A DNA stretch of 45,181 bases from a virus, in IMG/VR virus record IMGVR_UViG_3300043256_000195, positions 1 to 45,181 of that record. The stretch is one strand, 5' to 3'. The first letter of the stretch is position 1. Each line of letters opens with the position of its first letter. Positions 10,974-30,197 of this stretch are shown here, piece by piece. A program made the position numbers and the translations under genes. The notes under the pieces are model-generated. The model made no database searches, had not been told where the DNA came from, and saw only the letters and a program-made list of their open reading frames with translations.

Positions 10974-11275
10974 TAACCCACCAGCTTCCCCTGACGGGCC
11001 TAGAGTTGAAGGAACAGGGCCAACAGTCGCTAGAGAGACATAGGTGGGTATATATTGCGCGTAATGCGGCTGTGGCACTTTGCCGACGCGACGGGCGGGT
11101 CACGTCCGACCTTATACATATCATGATGGAAGACAACAACTTCCTGCCGCCCCCGCACGACAACTGCTACGGAACAATCTTCCACGACAAGCGGTTCGTA
11201 GCTACCGGCGAGCGTGTCCGTTCCACCCGGCCCGAGGCGCACGGGCGCTGGATAGAAGTTTGGAGGCTGGCGTGA
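10970..11275 (+). CDS. Hypothetical protein, winged-helix-like (101 aa)
   Basis: This 101-residue protein starts at ATG 10970. The sequence ARNAAVALCRRDGRVTSDLIHIMM, then IFHDKRFVATGERVRSTRPEAHGRWIEVWRL, has the helix-helix-wing order seen in small phage DNA-binding or recombination-region proteins. The family is not named with confidence. It overlaps the next gene's GTG as GTGA. Confidence 0.65.
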   Translation: MITHQLPLTGLELKEQGQQSLERHRWVYIARNAAVALCRRDGRVTSDLIHIMMEDNNFLPPPHDNCYGTIFHDKRFVATGERVRSTRPEAHGRWIEVWRLA

Positions 11276-11541
11276 ATTTCCTCTCTAAGTTGGTTTACAA
11301 GTGCGATCCCCTTGATGAACTTGTCGCCGACCCAAGTGAGCTGGCAACTCTGAAGGCGTGGCATGAGGGTTACAGCAAGGGTAGTGAGAGCGTCGAGCGC
11401 GGGATAGGTGGCCGTAGTCAGACACGATTGCCCTGTGGGACATGCCATAAGGACACGGTGCATGGATTTGTCAGCGAGCCAGAAAACCTAGTTTATTGCT
11501 TCCGCTGCGGTGCTCGTAATTACAAAAGGCTTGACGATTGA
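11272..11541 (+). CDS. 89-aa zinc-binding protein
   Basis: The best start is GTG 11272, behind TGGAGG. The N-terminal half is helical and acidic (about residues 10-45). The C-terminal half has CGTCHK and CFRCGARNYK, a zinc ribbon. The stop TGA (11539-11541) touches the 5' arm of the large structured RNA that follows. Longer upstream frames exist but overlap the previous gene heavily and lack a ribosome site. Confidence 0.65.
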   Translation: MNFLSKLVYKCDPLDELVADPSELATLKAWHEGYSKGSESVERGIGGRSQTRLPCGTCHKDTVHGFVSEPENLVYCFRCGARNYKRLDD

Positions 11542-11779
11542 CTCAACATCTTCCGTCGCCGCACCCCTTTAGCGACTCGTCTCTCTGGACTAAGGAGAGT
11601 CCAGGGCGACGGAAGGCGCTGAGTTCAGAGTGGGTGAGATGAGGGCTGTTCATTGGCTACCTCCATTCGACGGTTGTTACCTCGTCTCACCTACCCTGCG
11701 CTCAGGGTTGCGCGGCGGTGCCGTTATACATCGTTAAGACATGTGCCCTGTCCCCGTACCCGCGCTAAACGGGGGCCGC
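11540..11779 (+). ncRNA. Candidate structured RNA or riboregulatory leader, multi-stem
   Basis: A 255-bp gap between genes holds dense, nested complementarity on the + strand. P0: 11540-11545 with 11620-11625. P1: 11550-11560 with 11605-11615, 11 perfect pairs. An inner hairpin: 11585-11591 with 11598-11604, 7 pairs. P3: 11630-11643 with 11681-11694, 14 pairs including two G-U. P4: 11696-11701 with 11710-11715. P5: 11752-11757 with 11769-11774. CTGAG 11619-11623 can instead pair with CTCAG 11701-11705, excluding P0 and P4, as in a switch. It lies directly upstream of a strong ribosome site (11786). A 32-codon ORF at 11639-11737 is possible inside. No known family was recognised. It could be a 5' leader element or a free-standing RNA. 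Confidence 0.6.
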
Positions 11780-11796
11780 AGGAATAGGAGGACTAG

Positions 11797-12096
11797 ATGG
11801 GCGAATTCTACGACCGAAAAGGGCGATCAATGGAACTGATGGATTGGGCGCGAGCCCTTGAAAGCGCGGACACCGTAGTCGGAAATGACACCATTGACGG
11901 CCAGCAAGTCTCTACGGTTTGGACTGGGATGGGTCGCCGCTTTCTCGAAGGCCCGCCGCTCATCTTCGAGACCATGATTTTCGGTGGCCCACATGACCAA
12001 TACTGCGACCGCTACTCAAACGAGGAAGCCGCCCTAGCTGGCCACAACCGGACAGTCGCCGCATTGCGTGATGGCCGCGACCCACAGGAGGACTAG
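11797..12096 (+). CDS. Conserved-type phage hypothetical protein (99 aa)
   Basis: This 99-residue protein starts at ATG 11797 behind AGGAGGACTAG. It has the pattern ETMIFGGPHDQYCDRYSNEEAALAGH, resembling small phage proteins in which a YxTEEEAxxGH-like motif recurs; function unknown. The 14-nt string AGGAGGACTAGATG at its start is repeated exactly at the next gene (12086-12099). It directly follows the structured RNA, so its translation may be controlled by it. Confidence 0.7.
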   Translation: MGEFYDRKGRSMELMDWARALESADTVVGNDTIDGQQVSTVWTGMGRRFLEGPPLIFETMIFGGPHDQYCDRYSNEEAALAGHNRTVAALRDGRDPQED

Positions 12097-12339
12097 ATGA
12101 CACTAGAGCAGAAGGCCGTCAAGGTAGATGAGGCGATAGTGCATAAAGAGAACCAGTTGTGGGCGCTTCATGGCGAGTTTCGAGTGGCTGCGGCTCGGCT
12201 CAATTACGTGGCGAATTGGCTTGAGAATACGTACGCGCCAGGAACTCAGAGTGCTACAGCGGCGCGGGGCTATGCGGATGCGGCGAAGGAAGTTCTGGAC
12301 AAAGGGCTCGACTGGCTTATCGAGCAACGGAGGTATTGA
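12097..12339 (+). CDS. 80-aa helical hypothetical protein
   Basis: ATG 12097 immediately follows the previous TAG and uses CAGGAGGACTAG as its ribosome site. The 80-residue product is predicted to be two or three helices (VDEAIVHKENQLWAL, then AAARLNYVANWLE). There are no cysteines, unlike most neighbours. Function unknown. Confidence 0.68.
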   Translation: MTLEQKAVKVDEAIVHKENQLWALHGEFRVAAARLNYVANWLENTYAPGTQSATAARGYADAAKEVLDKGLDWLIEQRRY

Positions 12340-12578
12340 TGACACTAGAACTAGCCAGAAAACGCCGTGACCAGGGTGACCTTATCCATGAGTTGGTGGA
12401 GGCGCTGAAGAAGATGGGCTCTGTACGATACGACGGCCTTTGGCACGCGTCGGGCTGTCACCCCATCGGCGATTGTCCCTGCGCTCCATGGTGCATCCAG
12501 GCCGTCACCGTCCTAGAGAAAGCCAAAGAGCACGACTGCATCCCGTGGGATGACGCGAGAGAGGTGGCCCAGCAATGA
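12339..12578 (+). CDS. 79-aa Cys/His-rich protein
   Basis: ATG 12339 overlaps the previous stop and follows GGAGG at ideal spacing. After an N-terminal amphipathic helix, a cluster CHPIGDCPCAPWC with nearby His could bind zinc. It overlaps the next gene by four bases (ATGA). Family not recognised. Confidence 0.66.
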   Translation: MTLELARKRRDQGDLIHELVEALKKMGSVRYDGLWHASGCHPIGDCPCAPWCIQAVTVLEKAKEHDCIPWDDAREVAQQ

Positions 12579-16094: not shown

Positions 16095-16182
16095 GGCGTC
16101 CGGCGTCCGCTGCCCCGCCTGCAACGGCTACTGCAAGGGCTACCCAGTGACGTGCCGCCACTGTGGGCGGAGGTTCGCGTGA
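16081..16182 (+). CDS. 33-aa zinc-ribbon minigene
   Basis: ATG 16081 lies within the end of the winged-helix gene. The 33 residues contain CPACNGYC and CRHCGRRF, two zinc knuckles in a basic peptide. It overlaps the methyltransferase start (GTGA at 16179). One of a notable series of tiny CxxC proteins in this genome. Confidence 0.55.
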   Translation: MKSGKASGVRCPACNGYCKGYPVTCRHCGRRFA

Positions 16183-16889
16183 GTAAGCCGCTCTTGCTCG
16201 ACTTGTTTTGTGGTGCCGGCGGGGCAGCGATGGGCTACCACCGGGCGGGCTTCCGAGTCGTTGGCGTGGATCATAAACCACAGCCGCACTATCCGTTCGA
16301 GTTCATCTTGGCCGACGCGATGACGTTCCCGCTGGAAGGCTTCGACGCGATTCACGCGAGTCCTCCATGTCAGGGCTATAGCATCATGCGGCATCTTCCC
16401 TGGCTCCGTGATAAGAAATATCCTCTTCTGATTGAACCAACGCGGGAACTATTGCTGGCGGCGAGAGTGCCTTACGTCATTGAGAACGTAACCGGAGCTC
16501 GCCGAAGCCGCTCTCGCCCGAATGGAATGCAGGCCGGTTGGCTCTGTGGCGGAATGTTCGATTTACCTTTCTACCGCCATCGCTACTTCGAGTCAGATTG
16601 GTTCTGGATGCAACCTGGGCACCCGCGTCACCGGCGAACGATACTAGCAGGAGGAATGTTAAAGGGACGTGCGCGGGTTGGCGTTTATCACCGCCCCGAC
16701 AGAACGGTGAGTACGCTAGCCAATTCTGCTGGGGCGCATCGTAGTAAGGCAGAGTTCGAGGCTACTTGTGCCGGAATGGGCATTGATTGGATGACGAGGA
16801 AAGAACTATCCCAAGCCATCCCTCCAGCCTACACAGAGTACATCGGGCGGCAACTTATCAGCGTTCTGAAAGCCCAGGCTGTGCTATAA
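16179..16889 (+). CDS. Orphan DNA (cytosine-5) methyltransferase
   Basis: The start is GTG 16179 behind GGCGGAGG, giving 236 residues. Motif I DLFCGAGGAAMG is at residues 8-19, motif IV SPPCQGYS at 61-68 with catalytic Cys 64, and motif VI ENV at 102-104; a late RxIPxAYTEYIG block matches the C-terminal motif X region. It is short for the family (usually over 300), with a small target-recognition region. It transfers methyl from S-adenosylmethionine to cytosine C5. With no restriction partner nearby, it probably protects phage DNA from host nucleases. Its TAA stop is part of a TATAAT promoter element. Confidence 0.88.
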   Translation: MSKPLLLDLFCGAGGAAMGYHRAGFRVVGVDHKPQPHYPFEFILADAMTFPLEGFDAIHASPPCQGYSIMRHLPWLRDKKYPLLIEPTRELLLAARVPYVIENVTGARRSRSRPNGMQAGWLCGGMFDLPFYRHRYFESDWFWMQPGHPRHRRTILAGGMLKGRARVGVYHRPDRTVSTLANSAGAHRSKAEFEATCAGMGIDWMTRKELSQAIPPAYTEYIGRQLISVLKAQAVL

Positions 16890-17513: not shown

Positions 17514-18638
17514 ATGACGGTCGACATCATCTGCGCCGACGCCTGCGACGCCCTGGGCGCGATGCCGGTGGGCTCGGTTCACGCCTGCATCACGTCCCCG
17601 CCCTACTGGGGGCTTCGAGACTACGGGCTGGAGCCTGGTGTGTGGGGCTCTGAGTGTGAGCACGAGTGGGGCGAGAGCATCGTCAGCAAGGCGAACGACA
17701 GCAATCGCGGCGATATGGAATGGACGACAGGGGGGCCACCAGGGGCGAAGGTGAAGGGTGAGCGTGTATCGCAAGGCGCTTTCTGCCGCCGCTGCAACGC
17801 CTGGCGCGGCTCGCTGGGTCTAGAGCCGACGCCGGAGTTGTACGTGGAGCATATCGTCCAGGTGATGCGCGAGATCCGGCGTGTGCTGCGCGACGATGGG
17901 ACGCTGTGGCTGAATCTCGGGGATTCCTACAGCAGCGGCGGACGCGATTATCGTGATCCTGGCAAGCGACTGAACAGCGACGGGCGGCTCGCTGGCCTTG
18001 AGAAGAAGGGGACCCGGCCGCCGACACCTGACGGCCTCAAGCCCAAGGATCTCGTGGGCGTCCCCTGGCGCGTGGCCTTCGCGCTGCAGGCGGACGGTTG
18101 GTGGCTGCGATCGGACATCATCTGGTCGAAGCCCAACCCCATGCCGGAGTCGGTGACGGACAGGCCGACGCGGAGCCACGAGTACCTGTTCCTGCTGAGT
18201 AAGAGCGCCCGCTACTACTACGATGCCGACGCGATACGGGAGCCGAAGGCTGAAGCCACCGTTGGAGATCCGCGCACGAATGAGAACGGCCATCGGCGTA
18301 AGCGAGGCTATCCCGGCGAGCCGTCTAAGGGCGGCACGAATCTTGGCGGTCCGCAAGGTGGCCGCAACCGCCGCTCCGTGTGGGAGATCGCGACGCAGCC
18401 CTACGCCAAAGCCCACTTCGCAACCTTCCCTGAGAAGTTGGTGGAGCCGTGCATCCTGGCGGGCTGTCCGGAGGGCGGTAAGGTGCTGGACCCGTTCGCC
18501 GGCTCAGGAACAGTGGGCTTGGTGGCCGAGCGGTTGGGCCGGCACTCGGTCCTGATCGACGCCAGCGAGGACTACTGCCGGATGGCGCGGGAGAGGACGG
18601 CGCAGATGGGATTAATGGAGCAGTCCGCACCACATTAG
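17514..18638 (+). CDS. DNA amino-methyltransferase (N4-C or N6-A, beta type)
   Basis: This 374-residue protein starts at ATG 17514. Motif IV TSPPYWGLRDYG is at residues 27-38, with catalytic SPPY, and motif I LDPFAGSGTVG is near residue 324. That order (IV before I) defines the beta class of amino methyltransferases. A Cys-rich insert (CEHEW, CRRCNAW) between about 49 and 100 may bind zinc. The C-terminal motif region FPEKLVEPCI is typical of N4/N6 enzymes. No cognate endonuclease is visible. It probably modifies phage DNA against host restriction or regulates replication timing. Confidence 0.88.
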   Translation: MTVDIICADACDALGAMPVGSVHACITSPPYWGLRDYGLEPGVWGSECEHEWGESIVSKANDSNRGDMEWTTGGPPGAKVKGERVSQGAFCRRCNAWRGSLGLEPTPELYVEHIVQVMREIRRVLRDDGTLWLNLGDSYSSGGRDYRDPGKRLNSDGRLAGLEKKGTRPPTPDGLKPKDLVGVPWRVAFALQADGWWLRSDIIWSKPNPMPESVTDRPTRSHEYLFLLSKSARYYYDADAIREPKAEATVGDPRTNENGHRRKRGYPGEPSKGGTNLGGPQGGRNRRSVWEIATQPYAKAHFATFPEKLVEPCILAGCPEGGKVLDPFAGSGTVGLVAERLGRHSVLIDASEDYCRMARERTAQMGLMEQSAPH

Positions 18639-18832: not shown

Positions 18833-18843
18833 ATGGAGGAATC

Positions 18844-18852
18844 TGGTACAAT
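18844..18852 (+). promoter_or_regulatory. Extended -10 promoter of HNH copy 1
   Basis: TGG-TACAAT matches the extended -10 consensus closely and is identical in copy 2 (22667-22675). Predicted initiation near 18859 gives an about 64-nt leader containing two conserved hairpins. No convincing -35 was seen, as expected for extended -10 sites. Confidence 0.5.
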
Positions 18853-18869
18853 GGTGGTAGATACAGAGC

Positions 18870-18922
18870 GGGGCCGCGACGCGGTAAACGTCCGACCCCC
18901 CGACACCGAAAGGTTGGTTTCG
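18870..18922 (+). promoter_or_regulatory. Conserved two-hairpin RNA leader of HNH copy 1
   Basis: Hairpin 1: GGGG (18870-18873) with CCCC (18896-18899), and inner GACG (18878-18881) with CGTC (18889-18892). Hairpin 2: CGAAA (18907-18911) with TTTCG (18918-18922). Hairpin 2 has a 6-nt loop that includes part of the AAAGG ribosome site and directly abuts ATG 18923. The same structure precedes HNH copy 2. A structure that hides the ribosome site in read-through transcripts is a known control for T4 homing endonucleases (I-TevI), and this looks analogous. Confidence 0.6.
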
Positions 18923-19390
18923 ATGCAGTTACAGTCTACCACTTCTCCCCTGTTTGGCGATGCCCGCCTACCTGCCCGTTTCTGGAAGAGAGTCGCGGTT
19001 CAGCCGAGCGGTTGCTGGCTCTGGCGCGGCGGGCGCTGGACGAGCAGGAGTGCCCAATATGGCAGCTTCTGGCTTTCAGGCAGCAAGGCAGTACGCGCCC
19101 ATCGCTGGATATACGAACACCTTGTAGCGCCCATACCAAAGGGCCTCTCTATCGACCACTTGTGCCGGGAGCCACTCTGTGTTCGGCCTGACCACCTTGA
19201 GGCGACGACTGACAGGGTTAATATTCTGCGGGGCACTTGTCCTGCGGCGAAGAACGCTCGCAAAACGCATTGTATTCGCGGCCACGCTTTTGACCTTCTC
19301 AACACTTATGTTTCAGGCAGGAAGCGATGGTGTAGGGAATGTCGGCGACAAGACAGCCGCGCCCGTCGCCTCGCCGCAAAGGAGGAATGA
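18923..19390 (+). CDS. HNH homing endonuclease, copy 1
   Basis: ATG 18923 gives 155 residues. The core AHRWIYEHL, then LSIDHLCREPLC, VRPDHLEATT and NILRG, is the HNH_3-type nuclease (His-Asp-His with a Cys pair). A second zinc motif, CIRGHAFD then CRECRR, follows, with a basic tail. It is paralogous to 22749-23180 over its whole length. Such genes are mobile, free-standing homing endonucleases that cut intron-less or genome-specific targets and spread into related phages. An upstream in-frame ATG at 18851 is disfavoured because the conserved leader changes frame between copies. The 3' end overlaps a lysozyme reading frame. Confidence 0.83.
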   Translation: MQLQSTTSPLFGDARLPARFWKRVAVQPSGCWLWRGGRWTSRSAQYGSFWLSGSKAVRAHRWIYEHLVAPIPKGLSIDHLCREPLCVRPDHLEATTDRVNILRGTCPAAKNARKTHCIRGHAFDLLNTYVSGRKRWCRECRRQDSRARRLAAKEE

Positions 19391-22666: not shown

Positions 22667-22675
22667 TGGTACAAT
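22667..22675 (+). promoter_or_regulatory. Extended -10 promoter of HNH copy 2
   Basis: TGG-TACAAT, identical to the element at 18844-18852 before HNH copy 1. Predicted initiation is near 22682, giving a leader of about 67 nt. Confidence 0.5.
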
Positions 22676-22692
22676 GGTTGTAGCAATAGAAC

Positions 22693-22748
22693 GGGGCCGC
22701 GACGTGGCAACACGTCCGACCCCACGACAACGAAAGGCAAGTCTTTCG
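22693..22748 (+). promoter_or_regulatory. Conserved two-hairpin RNA leader of HNH copy 2
   Basis: Hairpin 1: GGGG (22693-22696) with CCCC (22720-22723), and inner GACGT (22701-22705) with ACGTC (22712-22716). Hairpin 2: CGAAAG (22731-22736) with CTTTCG (22743-22748), loop 6 nt, abutting ATG 22749. Compared with copy 1, one extra base lengthens the inner stem by a pair and two extra bases lengthen hairpin 2 by a pair while keeping its loop at 6 nt. Those indels change the reading frame between copies, so selection is on RNA. Confidence 0.62.
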
Positions 22749-23180
22749 ATGCAGCTACAGTTTACCACTTCTCCTGTCTTTGGCGATCCCCGTCTGCTTG
22801 CTCGGTTCTGGGATAAGGTTCACGTTCTCGATAACGGATGCTGGGAGTGGCAGGGCGGTAAAAGCAGAGGATACGGCTACTCTAGCTGGCGCGGGCGGAA
22901 CCACCAAGTACACCGCCTAGCGTTTGAGCGCTTGGTCGGGCCCATCCCTGAAGGTCTCACGATAGACCACCTCTGCCGCAATCGAGCGTGTGTTAACCCG
23001 GTGCACTTAGAGCCTGTAACTATGCGTGAGAACATCTTGCGGGGCGACGGGTTGGCGGCGAGAGAGGCGCGTCGCACTCACTGCGTTGAAGGGCATGAGT
23101 ACTCAGATGCGAACACCTATCGGAGTCGGGGGAAGCGCCTCTGTCGTGAATGTCGCAGGACGAAATACCGACGAAAGTAA
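22749..23180 (+). CDS. HNH homing endonuclease, copy 2
   Basis: ATG 22749 gives 143 residues. The N-terminal MQLQ-x-TTSP-x-FGD is shared with copy 1. The nuclease core has VHRLAFERLVGPIPEGLTIDHLCRNRAC, VNPVHLEPVT and NILRG, then CVEGHEYSDANTYRSRGKRLCRECRR as a second zinc site. About half the residues match copy 1 by eye. The two genes sit next to the two peptidoglycan-degrading genes. Likely a selfish free-standing endonuclease. Confidence 0.85.
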   Translation: MQLQFTTSPVFGDPRLLARFWDKVHVLDNGCWEWQGGKSRGYGYSSWRGRNHQVHRLAFERLVGPIPEGLTIDHLCRNRACVNPVHLEPVTMRENILRGDGLAAREARRTHCVEGHEYSDANTYRSRGKRLCRECRRTKYRRK

Positions 23181-27092: not shown

Positions 27093-27668
27093 TTATGCGG
27101 CTAGCTTTGTCAGGCTGTTGGGCCGGTATACGCTTGGGGGTACTAAGACGGACGGGCGGATGACTTGCTTGCTTTGGGGATAGCCGCCGACGTGCTGGAC
27201 GGCCTGGGTGATGGCACTACAGACAGCCCACTCTTCGGCGGATATGGGAGCGTGGATCGAGTTACCCCAATAGGCGGTAGTCTTGCAGGTGCCGTTACGC
27301 TTGAACGTAGCCTTACCGTGAGTCCGGCGGTGATCCTTGCCAGGGGTAAGGTAGCGTGGGCGGAAGGTTGTGGCGGGCTCATGCCGTACAGGTGGCTTGT
27401 AGGGGCGCTTGATTGTGGTAGGGGTGGGTTTCGTATGGCCATTTCGTGATGCAGGGAGAAGGGTAGAGATAGCAGCCGCGATGTTACGGGCGTCATCTTC
27501 GCCGACGCGGACGCCGCGCTTAGTAGGATGCCACTCACCGTCAGGGGATCGCCAGTAGTTGCGAATGTCAACGTATCCCTTCTTCCGCCAGGTTCCGGCG
27601 CTGACGACTAGCTTAGAGTCGCCGCCGTTCTTAATCTCGCGGGACTGTGCTACGCTGTTTGTGGACAT
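27093..27668 (-). CDS. PC4-like ssDNA-binding transcription cofactor domain protein
   Basis: The minus-strand ATG at 27668 follows TAGGAGGTTCTACCG. Of 191 residues, about 20-70 (KLVVSAGTWRKKGYVDIRNYW, then GEWHPTKRGVRV, then DDARNIAAAI) match the PC4/Sub1 coactivator fold: two strands, the PTKxG turn and a closing helix. Phage PC4 proteins bind ssDNA and affect transcription or recombination. The C-terminal about 115 residues are basic and low-complexity, then a compact unknown region (THGKATFKRNG, HAPISAEEWAVCSAI). Confidence 0.7.
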   Translation of the reverse strand: MSTNSVAQSREIKNGGDSKLVVSAGTWRKKGYVDIRNYWRSPDGEWHPTKRGVRVGEDDARNIAAAISTLLPASRNGHTKPTPTTIKRPYKPPVRHEPATTFRPRYLTPGKDHRRTHGKATFKRNGTCKTTAYWGNSIHAPISAEEWAVCSAITQAVQHVGGYPQSKQVIRPSVLVPPSVYRPNSLTKLAA

Positions 27669-29819: not shown

Positions 29820-29994
29820 TTGGCAGACTCTCCTAATGGTGCACCTAGTGCAAGGTAGATACGTGGCTACCCGGACTCCAACAGAGTATGACTGGTGGAC
29901 GTTGTGGGCGCTGGCTACGGCGGATAGTGTTAACTCTCCGATAGAGCCAGAAACAAAAGACACCAACACCCTCACGTCCACGTCAGCACCTTAG
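29812..29994 (+). CDS. 60-aa hypothetical protein
   Basis: GTG 29812 overlaps the small terminase stop. The 60-residue product starts SWQTLLMVHLVQGRYVATRTP, then EYDWWTLWALATADSV, and ends in Thr/Ser. The overlap supports translation, but composition is not decisive. It is followed by the 200-bp gap. Confidence 0.5.
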   Translation: MTSWQTLLMVHLVQGRYVATRTPTEYDWWTLWALATADSVNSPIEPETKDTNTLTSTSAP

Positions 29995-30197
29995 TTGCAT
30001 AGGTTCACACAGTCCATGATCCGTGCAACCCTCGCCATAACAAGTGTCAAGTGTGATTCTGTATCTGTGGGGACTTGACCTAAGACATATAGTGCGAACC
30101 AGGGGACGGGTTCCCGATTGGCGGTTCTCTGTATACCACTAGGGTATTGACTCCCAGACGCGGCCCCGTATTTGGACTATTGACATAAGGAGGCACC
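29995..30197 (+). other. Gene-free 200-bp region by the terminase genes
   Basis: No convincing ORF. Seen: an imperfect hairpin GTTGCA (29994-29999) with TGCAAC (30024-30029), GAACC (about 30096-30100) with GGTTC (30109-30113), a direct AAGTGT repeat near 30043-30055, and a possible promoter TTGACT (30147-30152)-N16-TATTTG (30169-30174). Being next to the small terminase, it is the best candidate for a packaging (pac/cos) or regulatory site, but nothing proves it. Confidence 0.45.

Follow-up and report, generated by a model that had tools for sequence, protein, structure and literature searches.

An undescribed, narrow family of structured intercistronic RNA built of hairpin modules in a group of related phages

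What occupies the gap at 11542-11796, where 255 bases without a credible gene separate two small genes of a phage operon? The window, that is the whole stretch of DNA analysed, is a 45,181-base virus record (IMGVR_UViG_3300043256_000195), in which tail genes up to about 10.6 kb are followed on the same strand by small early genes and by recombination and replication genes. A stop codon (TGA 11539-11541) and ATG 11797 bound the gap, which is the longest of its kind in the operon once the HNH genes are counted. The protein encoded upstream of it has no relative in viral contigs or in five related genomes, whether at the same position or elsewhere. The gene downstream has relatives at 55 viral loci, none of which carries a copy of the modules A or C defined below, and Pfam and PHROGs searches with its product were empty. 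The modules and the neighbouring genes are as follows.

11272-11541, plus strand: upstream gene, 89 aa, cysteine-rich and zinc-ribbon-like by eye, its stop codon overlapping the start of module A
11540-11625, plus strand: module A, Y-shaped, its basal helix (P1+P2) carrying a variable arm on the 5' side and a hairpin (P3) on the 3' side, found in 6/6 related genomes
11542-11560, plus strand: 5' strand of the P1+P2 helix, 19 columns, pairing with 11605-11623
11605-11623, plus strand: 3' strand of the P1+P2 helix
11585-11604, plus strand: P3 hairpin (11585-11591/11598-11604) with the loop AAGGAG, read from the sequence
11578-11611, plus strand: alternative, extended P3 (11578-11591/11598-11611), which excludes the top of P2
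11630-11694, plus strand: module C, a 15-bp hairpin (11630-11644/11680-11694) with two G-U pairs and a long variable loop
11698-11776, plus strand: modules D and E, stems 11698-11701/11710-11713 and 11750-11756/11770-11776
11786-11791, plus strand: strong Shine-Dalgarno sequence AGGAGG of the gene starting at ATG 11797
11797-12096, plus strand: downstream gene, 99 aa, a widespread small phage protein
12999-13664, same strand as the small early genes: exonuclease

Elsewhere, the window codes for a C5 and an N6/N4 DNA methyltransferase, for two HNH endonucleases and for a PC4-like single-strand binding protein (together at 16152-16889, 17514-18638, 18833-19390, 22674-23180 and 27093-27668). A second long gap without a convincing gene (29820-30197) is not strongly structured, lies near the change of coding strand and is possibly a promoter or immunity region. 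The 14-base ribosome site and start AGGAGGACTAGATG occurs at 11786-11799 and again at 12086-12099, before two neighbouring genes, and in the relatives AGGAATAGGAGGATGAGATG stands before yet other genes. Small genes with a near-identical N-terminus (MTLELARKRRDQGDLIHELVEAL) and differing C-terminal parts were detected at 12339-12578 of the window, at L083 14090-14311 and at L087 8699-8460 (minus strand); this shared N-terminus with different C-termini is mosaicism inside a gene just downstream of the element.

An earlier note, made from the letters of the window, had described the gap as one large, densely paired, probably non-coding RNA element running from a stop codon to a strong ribosome site, and both boundaries are as it placed them. 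The stretch 11540-11779 folds with -107.2 kcal/mol (z -4.0), which none of 200 shuffles matched, and 11501-11700 on the plus strand is the most extreme (z -4.5) of about 900 windows of 200 nt in a scan of both strands. Module A alone (11540-11625, z -4.25) and module C alone (11628-11697, z -4.97) were each matched by 0/1000 shuffles. After 11690 the structure is at chance level (z +0.5), so the two small stems that the note had listed behind module C receive no support from energy. A 240-nt fold with long-range pairs reaches -108.2 kcal/mol vs -103.1 for the modular fold, a gain of only 5 kcal/mol, and conservation was seen for the modular fold only. The conserved unit is a row of independent hairpin modules, their number varying among the phages, and not a single large element. 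The probably non-coding, densely paired RNA itself was borne out; as described below, it matches no Rfam family, and its stems covary in the related phages.

The perfect 11-bp stem reported at 11550-11560/11605-11615 is present, as is the inner 7-bp hairpin, here P3. The further 6 bp said to close the 11-bp stem do pair; they are part of the one 19-column helix, since the stem runs on down to 11542/11623. The stem given as 14 bp (11630-11643/11681-11694) exists with its two G-U pairs and is in fact 15 bp long.

A terminase search led to five related, uncultured IMG/VR phages (G001 to G005) with 71-89% identical terminase. BLAST against the window gave a match covering module A in G001 (81%) and one covering the 3' part with D and E in G005 (80%). 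In the syntenic gaps, module A was detected in G001, G003, G004 and G005, always one gene past a conserved 100-aa protein and beginning at the stop codon of the intervening gene. A covariance model built from the window and G001 only found a previously unseen copy in G002 (L086 8818-8908, E 5e-4), gave E 0.0085 for G003 and a weak match, E 0.26, for G005, and missed G004; its best E value on 503 kb of other phage loci was 3.1. The slot of the G002 copy is comparable, ahead of a gene whose relative comes after the element in G004, and module A is present as one copy per genome. As a side observation, the late regions of G002 and G005 appear nearly identical (the same window matches: L085/L090 and L058/L061), and their early regions differ (L084/L086).

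Searches of the window and the relatives' regions against Rfam 15 gave no match at the gathering threshold, and at permissive thresholds the best hit (E 0.26) was a microRNA model far below threshold. No tRNA or tmRNA was found in the region, in agreement with the earlier note, which had recognised no riboswitch, tRNA-like RNA, group I intron or phage ornate RNA. Plain DNA similarity gave no match among 50,697 phage records, no exact 24-mers were shared with viral contigs, and genome-collection scans with the terminase and the conserved neighbour gene found no prophages. As far as the searches reach, the family is narrow, with six genomes among 2.9 million viral contigs, and it is an undescribed RNA family of a known broad kind, the structured intercistronic phage RNA.

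The evidence for module A comes from its basal helix. A MAFFT alignment of the full module A sequences was misaligned, and RNAalifold on it yielded almost nothing; because the stems diverge, the stem strands were compared directly instead. In the window, P1+P2 has 16 Watson-Crick pairs, one G-U pair and two A-C mismatches, and across the genomes the helix is 19-21 bp with 2-3 mismatches, its length being kept at about 17-21 bp. All share a ladder with a near-constant base (CTC/GAG in 5/6 genomes), then short paired runs separated by single mismatches, then a variable top. P3 occurs in every genome at most 3 bases from the P2 3' strand, which it directly abuts in the window. In the four genomes that are in register, 88% of cells pair, and 11 of the 19 helix pairs changed on both sides. 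The covariation score, computed from the helix strands only, joined by an artificial linker, in four genomes of equal or nearly equal helix length and with the top pair of G005 omitted, is 0.684 vs 0.279 +/- 0.071 for shuffled strands; 0/500 shuffles and no slid register reach this value, and these controls correct only partly for the choice of the strands by eye from folds, which favours pairing. When the 5' and 3' strands of all six genomes were permuted, each genome's own pairing was the best among 720 assignments (-150.9 kcal/mol), and the bulged helices of G002 and G004 are covered by this permutation test only. Among the related phages, compensatory changes preserve the module A helix.

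Module C is conserved in three genomes, with 97.8% of cells paired and three adjacent pairs doubly compensated; its covariation score was matched by 29/500 shuffles, as only three sequences are available. G004 has at this position a 13-bp hairpin analogue without evident sequence similarity, and the helix length among genomes is 13-16 bp. The structure in the covariance model of C was off by one column, so that its matches rest on sequence, and the correct register was counted separately. The loop of module C contains ACCTCC (11658-11663), complementary to the downstream Shine-Dalgarno sequence, and the G005 loop has CTCCT; this is probably chance, since nothing similar occurs in G003 and G004.

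An extra hairpin between A and C, module B, was detected in G003, G004 and G005, and the window and G001 are without it.

L084 7703-7640, minus strand: module B
L087 8863-8795, minus strand: module B
L088 6037-5969, minus strand: module B

Its core GGGGTTCGGYTCCCCCGTC is strictly kept, and it can fold two ways (GGGG/CCCC or CGG/CCG); in G005 the stem letters differ and the pairing is kept. The stability of module B is not above that of shuffles. A reading of GGGGTTCGGYTCCCCCGTC as a T-arm was rejected, as there is no A58 and the acceptor strands do not lie on the side required, and the only match to it outside the group (L099), with no other modules around, was judged to be chance. In D and E the sequence is conserved and the structure is putative: G005 is about 80% identical over 11690-11803, and E is nearly invariant.

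G-U oppositions can pair in the sense RNA only, and A-C oppositions are the reverse case. With G004 included, module C has 10 G-U vs 1 A-C (p 0.006, an optimistic value because the sequences are related), and this large excess indicates that the sense RNA folds. For C and B together the count is 14 vs 1, and for all modules 20 vs 5, or 19 vs 4 without G002, whose helix is out of register in this count and whose one G-U and one A-C are meaningless. Module A alone (6 vs 4) does not prove the folded strand.

With two coding genes as positive controls, we detected no codon-position bias in module A. Its differences fall evenly on the codon positions (9, 5, 7 and 6, 6, 7), and the frame is broken by 1-nt indels between the window and G001; the exonuclease control showed a strong third-position bias, with 26, 19 and 82 differences at the first, second and third codon positions. 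A and C do not evolve as protein. The earlier note had set against its own reading a conserved coding sequence without compensatory changes in the stems, and this check did not overturn it; the changes found here are even over codon positions and compensatory in the stems.

What does such an RNA do between two genes? Neither a terminator nor a promoter-like site was detected in the gap (11540-11796), and the accessibility of the next ribosome site did not differ from shuffled leaders in seven cases, which together argues against termination, initiation and simple control of the ribosome site. T7-like phages carry RNase III sites in the intercistronic gaps of their early polycistronic messages, irregular long hairpins in which structure counts more than sequence and which have no terminator. 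The present stretch shares with T7-type sites the intercistronic position, the co-directional operon and the lack of a terminator. By analogy with them we tentatively read 11540-11779, at somewhat less than even confidence, as a cis-acting intercistronic RNA spacer, probably a double-stranded processing or stability signal. Since shape and helix length persist through changes of loops and stem letters, the modules probably act as double-stranded structures and not as sequence-specific sites. A polycistronic early transcript would carry the plus-strand modules A and C and then the D/E tail up to the ribosome site; the co-directional gene order of the operon is observed, and its early, co-transcribed status we infer. 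The modules would be cut by host RNase III or would block exonucleases, and the upstream and downstream small genes would thereby get separate, stable mRNAs. Counting against this processing model, the C helix (13-16 bp) is under two turns, D and E are conserved more in sequence than in structure, and A shows recurrent, mutually exclusive helices that a pure processing signal could do without.

Those helices suggest another reading, which we consider possible but unlikely, namely a regulated switch or attenuator. The P2 3' strand would have two possible partners, the P2 5' strand and a duplicate of the P2 sequence beside P3 (11578-11583 in the window), and a protein, a ligand or the ribosome would decide between them and so control the next gene. 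All 6/6 genomes allow this exchange, with modest support (the sequences concerned are CGTCTCTCTGGACT for the window, another GCACGGC for G003, GCACGGCTC for G004 and GCTGCG for G005), each has a start codon overlapping the first bases of A, and in G004 the conformers are 0.6 kcal/mol apart, with 4/300 shuffles as good. However, outside G004 the alternative is 9-16 kcal/mol less favourable and is equalled by 11-79 of 300 shuffles, shuffled leaders hide or expose the ribosome site to the same degree, the gap is without a terminator, and no conserved loop offers a possible binding pocket. The switch of the earlier note, a pairing of CTGAG (11619-11623) with CTCAG (11701-11705), failed in the comparison: the CTCAG region is CCTGG in G005 and absent from G001-G004, and its partner is also unconserved. 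On the processing reading, A would exchange strands as a step of its folding during transcription and not as a regulated switch; a folding pathway may explain the exchange, and a real switch is less likely.

The gene content around the modules raises the question of recombination. The genes just upstream of A have no similarity across the six genomes (in G005 the gene is an HNH endonuclease), and those downstream are related only in part, so the hairpin modules stay and the cassettes change. G003 has a 71-aa gene between A and B with a direct repeat at both borders.

L087 near 9093-9079 and 8865-8850, minus strand: borders of the 71-aa gene in G003, direct repeat GAGAAAGGAGGCGGG

From its sequence, this cassette looks as if it had been acquired by recombination at the ribosome-site repeat. 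The hairpins might mark a boundary for cassette exchange, like the PeSL elements of T4-type phages, acting at the DNA level or via short homology, a reading that we regard as rather doubtful. It would fit the unrelated upstream genes, the partly related downstream genes, the constancy of A from the stop codon on and the GAGAAAGGAGGCGGG repeats around the extra gene. Against it, the stem letters differ greatly between genomes and so offer poor homology, the G-U excess of C fits an RNA, each genome has a single copy of A without a promoter or terminator of the PeSL kind (see below), and a tyrosine integrase was detected in only one of the six genomes (G002; L086 7954-8514, minus strand, just upstream of the element).

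A bolder proposal, for which we see quite a small chance, joins exchange of strands and exchange of genes: A would be the first known member of a strand-exchange RNA class, in which two copies of one sequence vie for pairing with a third, the outcome being decided by a factor of the phage or the host and thereby controlling a slot of rapidly swapped, probably host-takeover genes, with B and C as plug-in parts. Improbable in our view, and a little more so than that proposal, is a trans-acting small RNA cut from the operon, e.g., an antisense or decoy against host functions; the compact, stable, self-contained folds and variable loops would suit it, but no promoter-like site or terminator accompanies the element, the loops are unconserved even in close relatives, and the position is bound to one operon slot. 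Very improbable is a DNA element, a cruciform or a hairpin in single-stranded DNA that would serve, e.g., as origin, attC-like cassette site or packaging signal. The cassette-like placement after a stop codon and the lack of a clear G-U excess in A alone (6 vs 4) are in its favour, but C and B together show the excess of 14 vs 1, and, as regards integron attC sites, the cores RYYYAAC/GTTRRRY are unconserved across the six sequences and 5/6 genomes are without a tyrosine recombinase. A short translated gene (an ORF of 26-54 codons from A/T-TG at the first bases of A in 6/6 genomes) deserves hardly any credence, for although its start overlaps the upstream stop in all six genomes and G005 and G002 have a good ribosome site, its product is unconserved, its length is by estimate near random expectation for the composition, its differences fall evenly on the codon positions, and indels that separate the window from G001 break the frame.

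To our knowledge, few structured RNA families are known in phages, and the present one adds a family supported by covariation. Its evolution is unusual in that fold and slot are kept and stem letters and neighbouring genes turn over. If the modules are processing sites, they would explain how unrelated genes can be plugged into one operon and yet give separate, well-dosed messages, and the hairpins would be portable mRNA insulators. If instead the strand exchange is a switch, the phages would have in it a new regulator of their variable early genes.

Several known systems resemble the element in part. In cluster K mycobacteriophages, the ESAS inverted repeats of about 17 bp immediately precede translation starts, have a consensus sequence and many copies per genome, and are followed by a 13-bp start-associated repeat (PMC3203893); the present modules likewise stand as inverted repeats close upstream of phage gene starts, but A and C keep shape and not sequence. 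The PeSLs of T4-type phages (Arbiol 2010 and Comeau 2014, as cited in PMC4503421 and PMC5931544) each consist of an early promoter and a terminator stem-loop, and a genome has many of them. The likeness lies in stem-loops in the intergenic gaps of a gene-shuffling region, and the difference in a gap that has neither promoter nor terminator and in one copy of A per genome. Rfam phage RNAs including GOLLD and ROOL are also phage-borne, structured and non-coding, but GOLLD and ROOL are several times larger than the element here (PMC12286853). The RNase III sites of T7 share with the present modules irregular long hairpins in intercistronic gaps of early mRNA, shape over letters and no terminator; the phage group here is without evident kinship to T7, and cleavage by RNase III is here only predicted. 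Unlike the T7 sites, up to three modules stand in tandem, the first module is Y-shaped and the flanking genes are swapped. This modular build and the cassette turnover are the unusual features of the RNA family.
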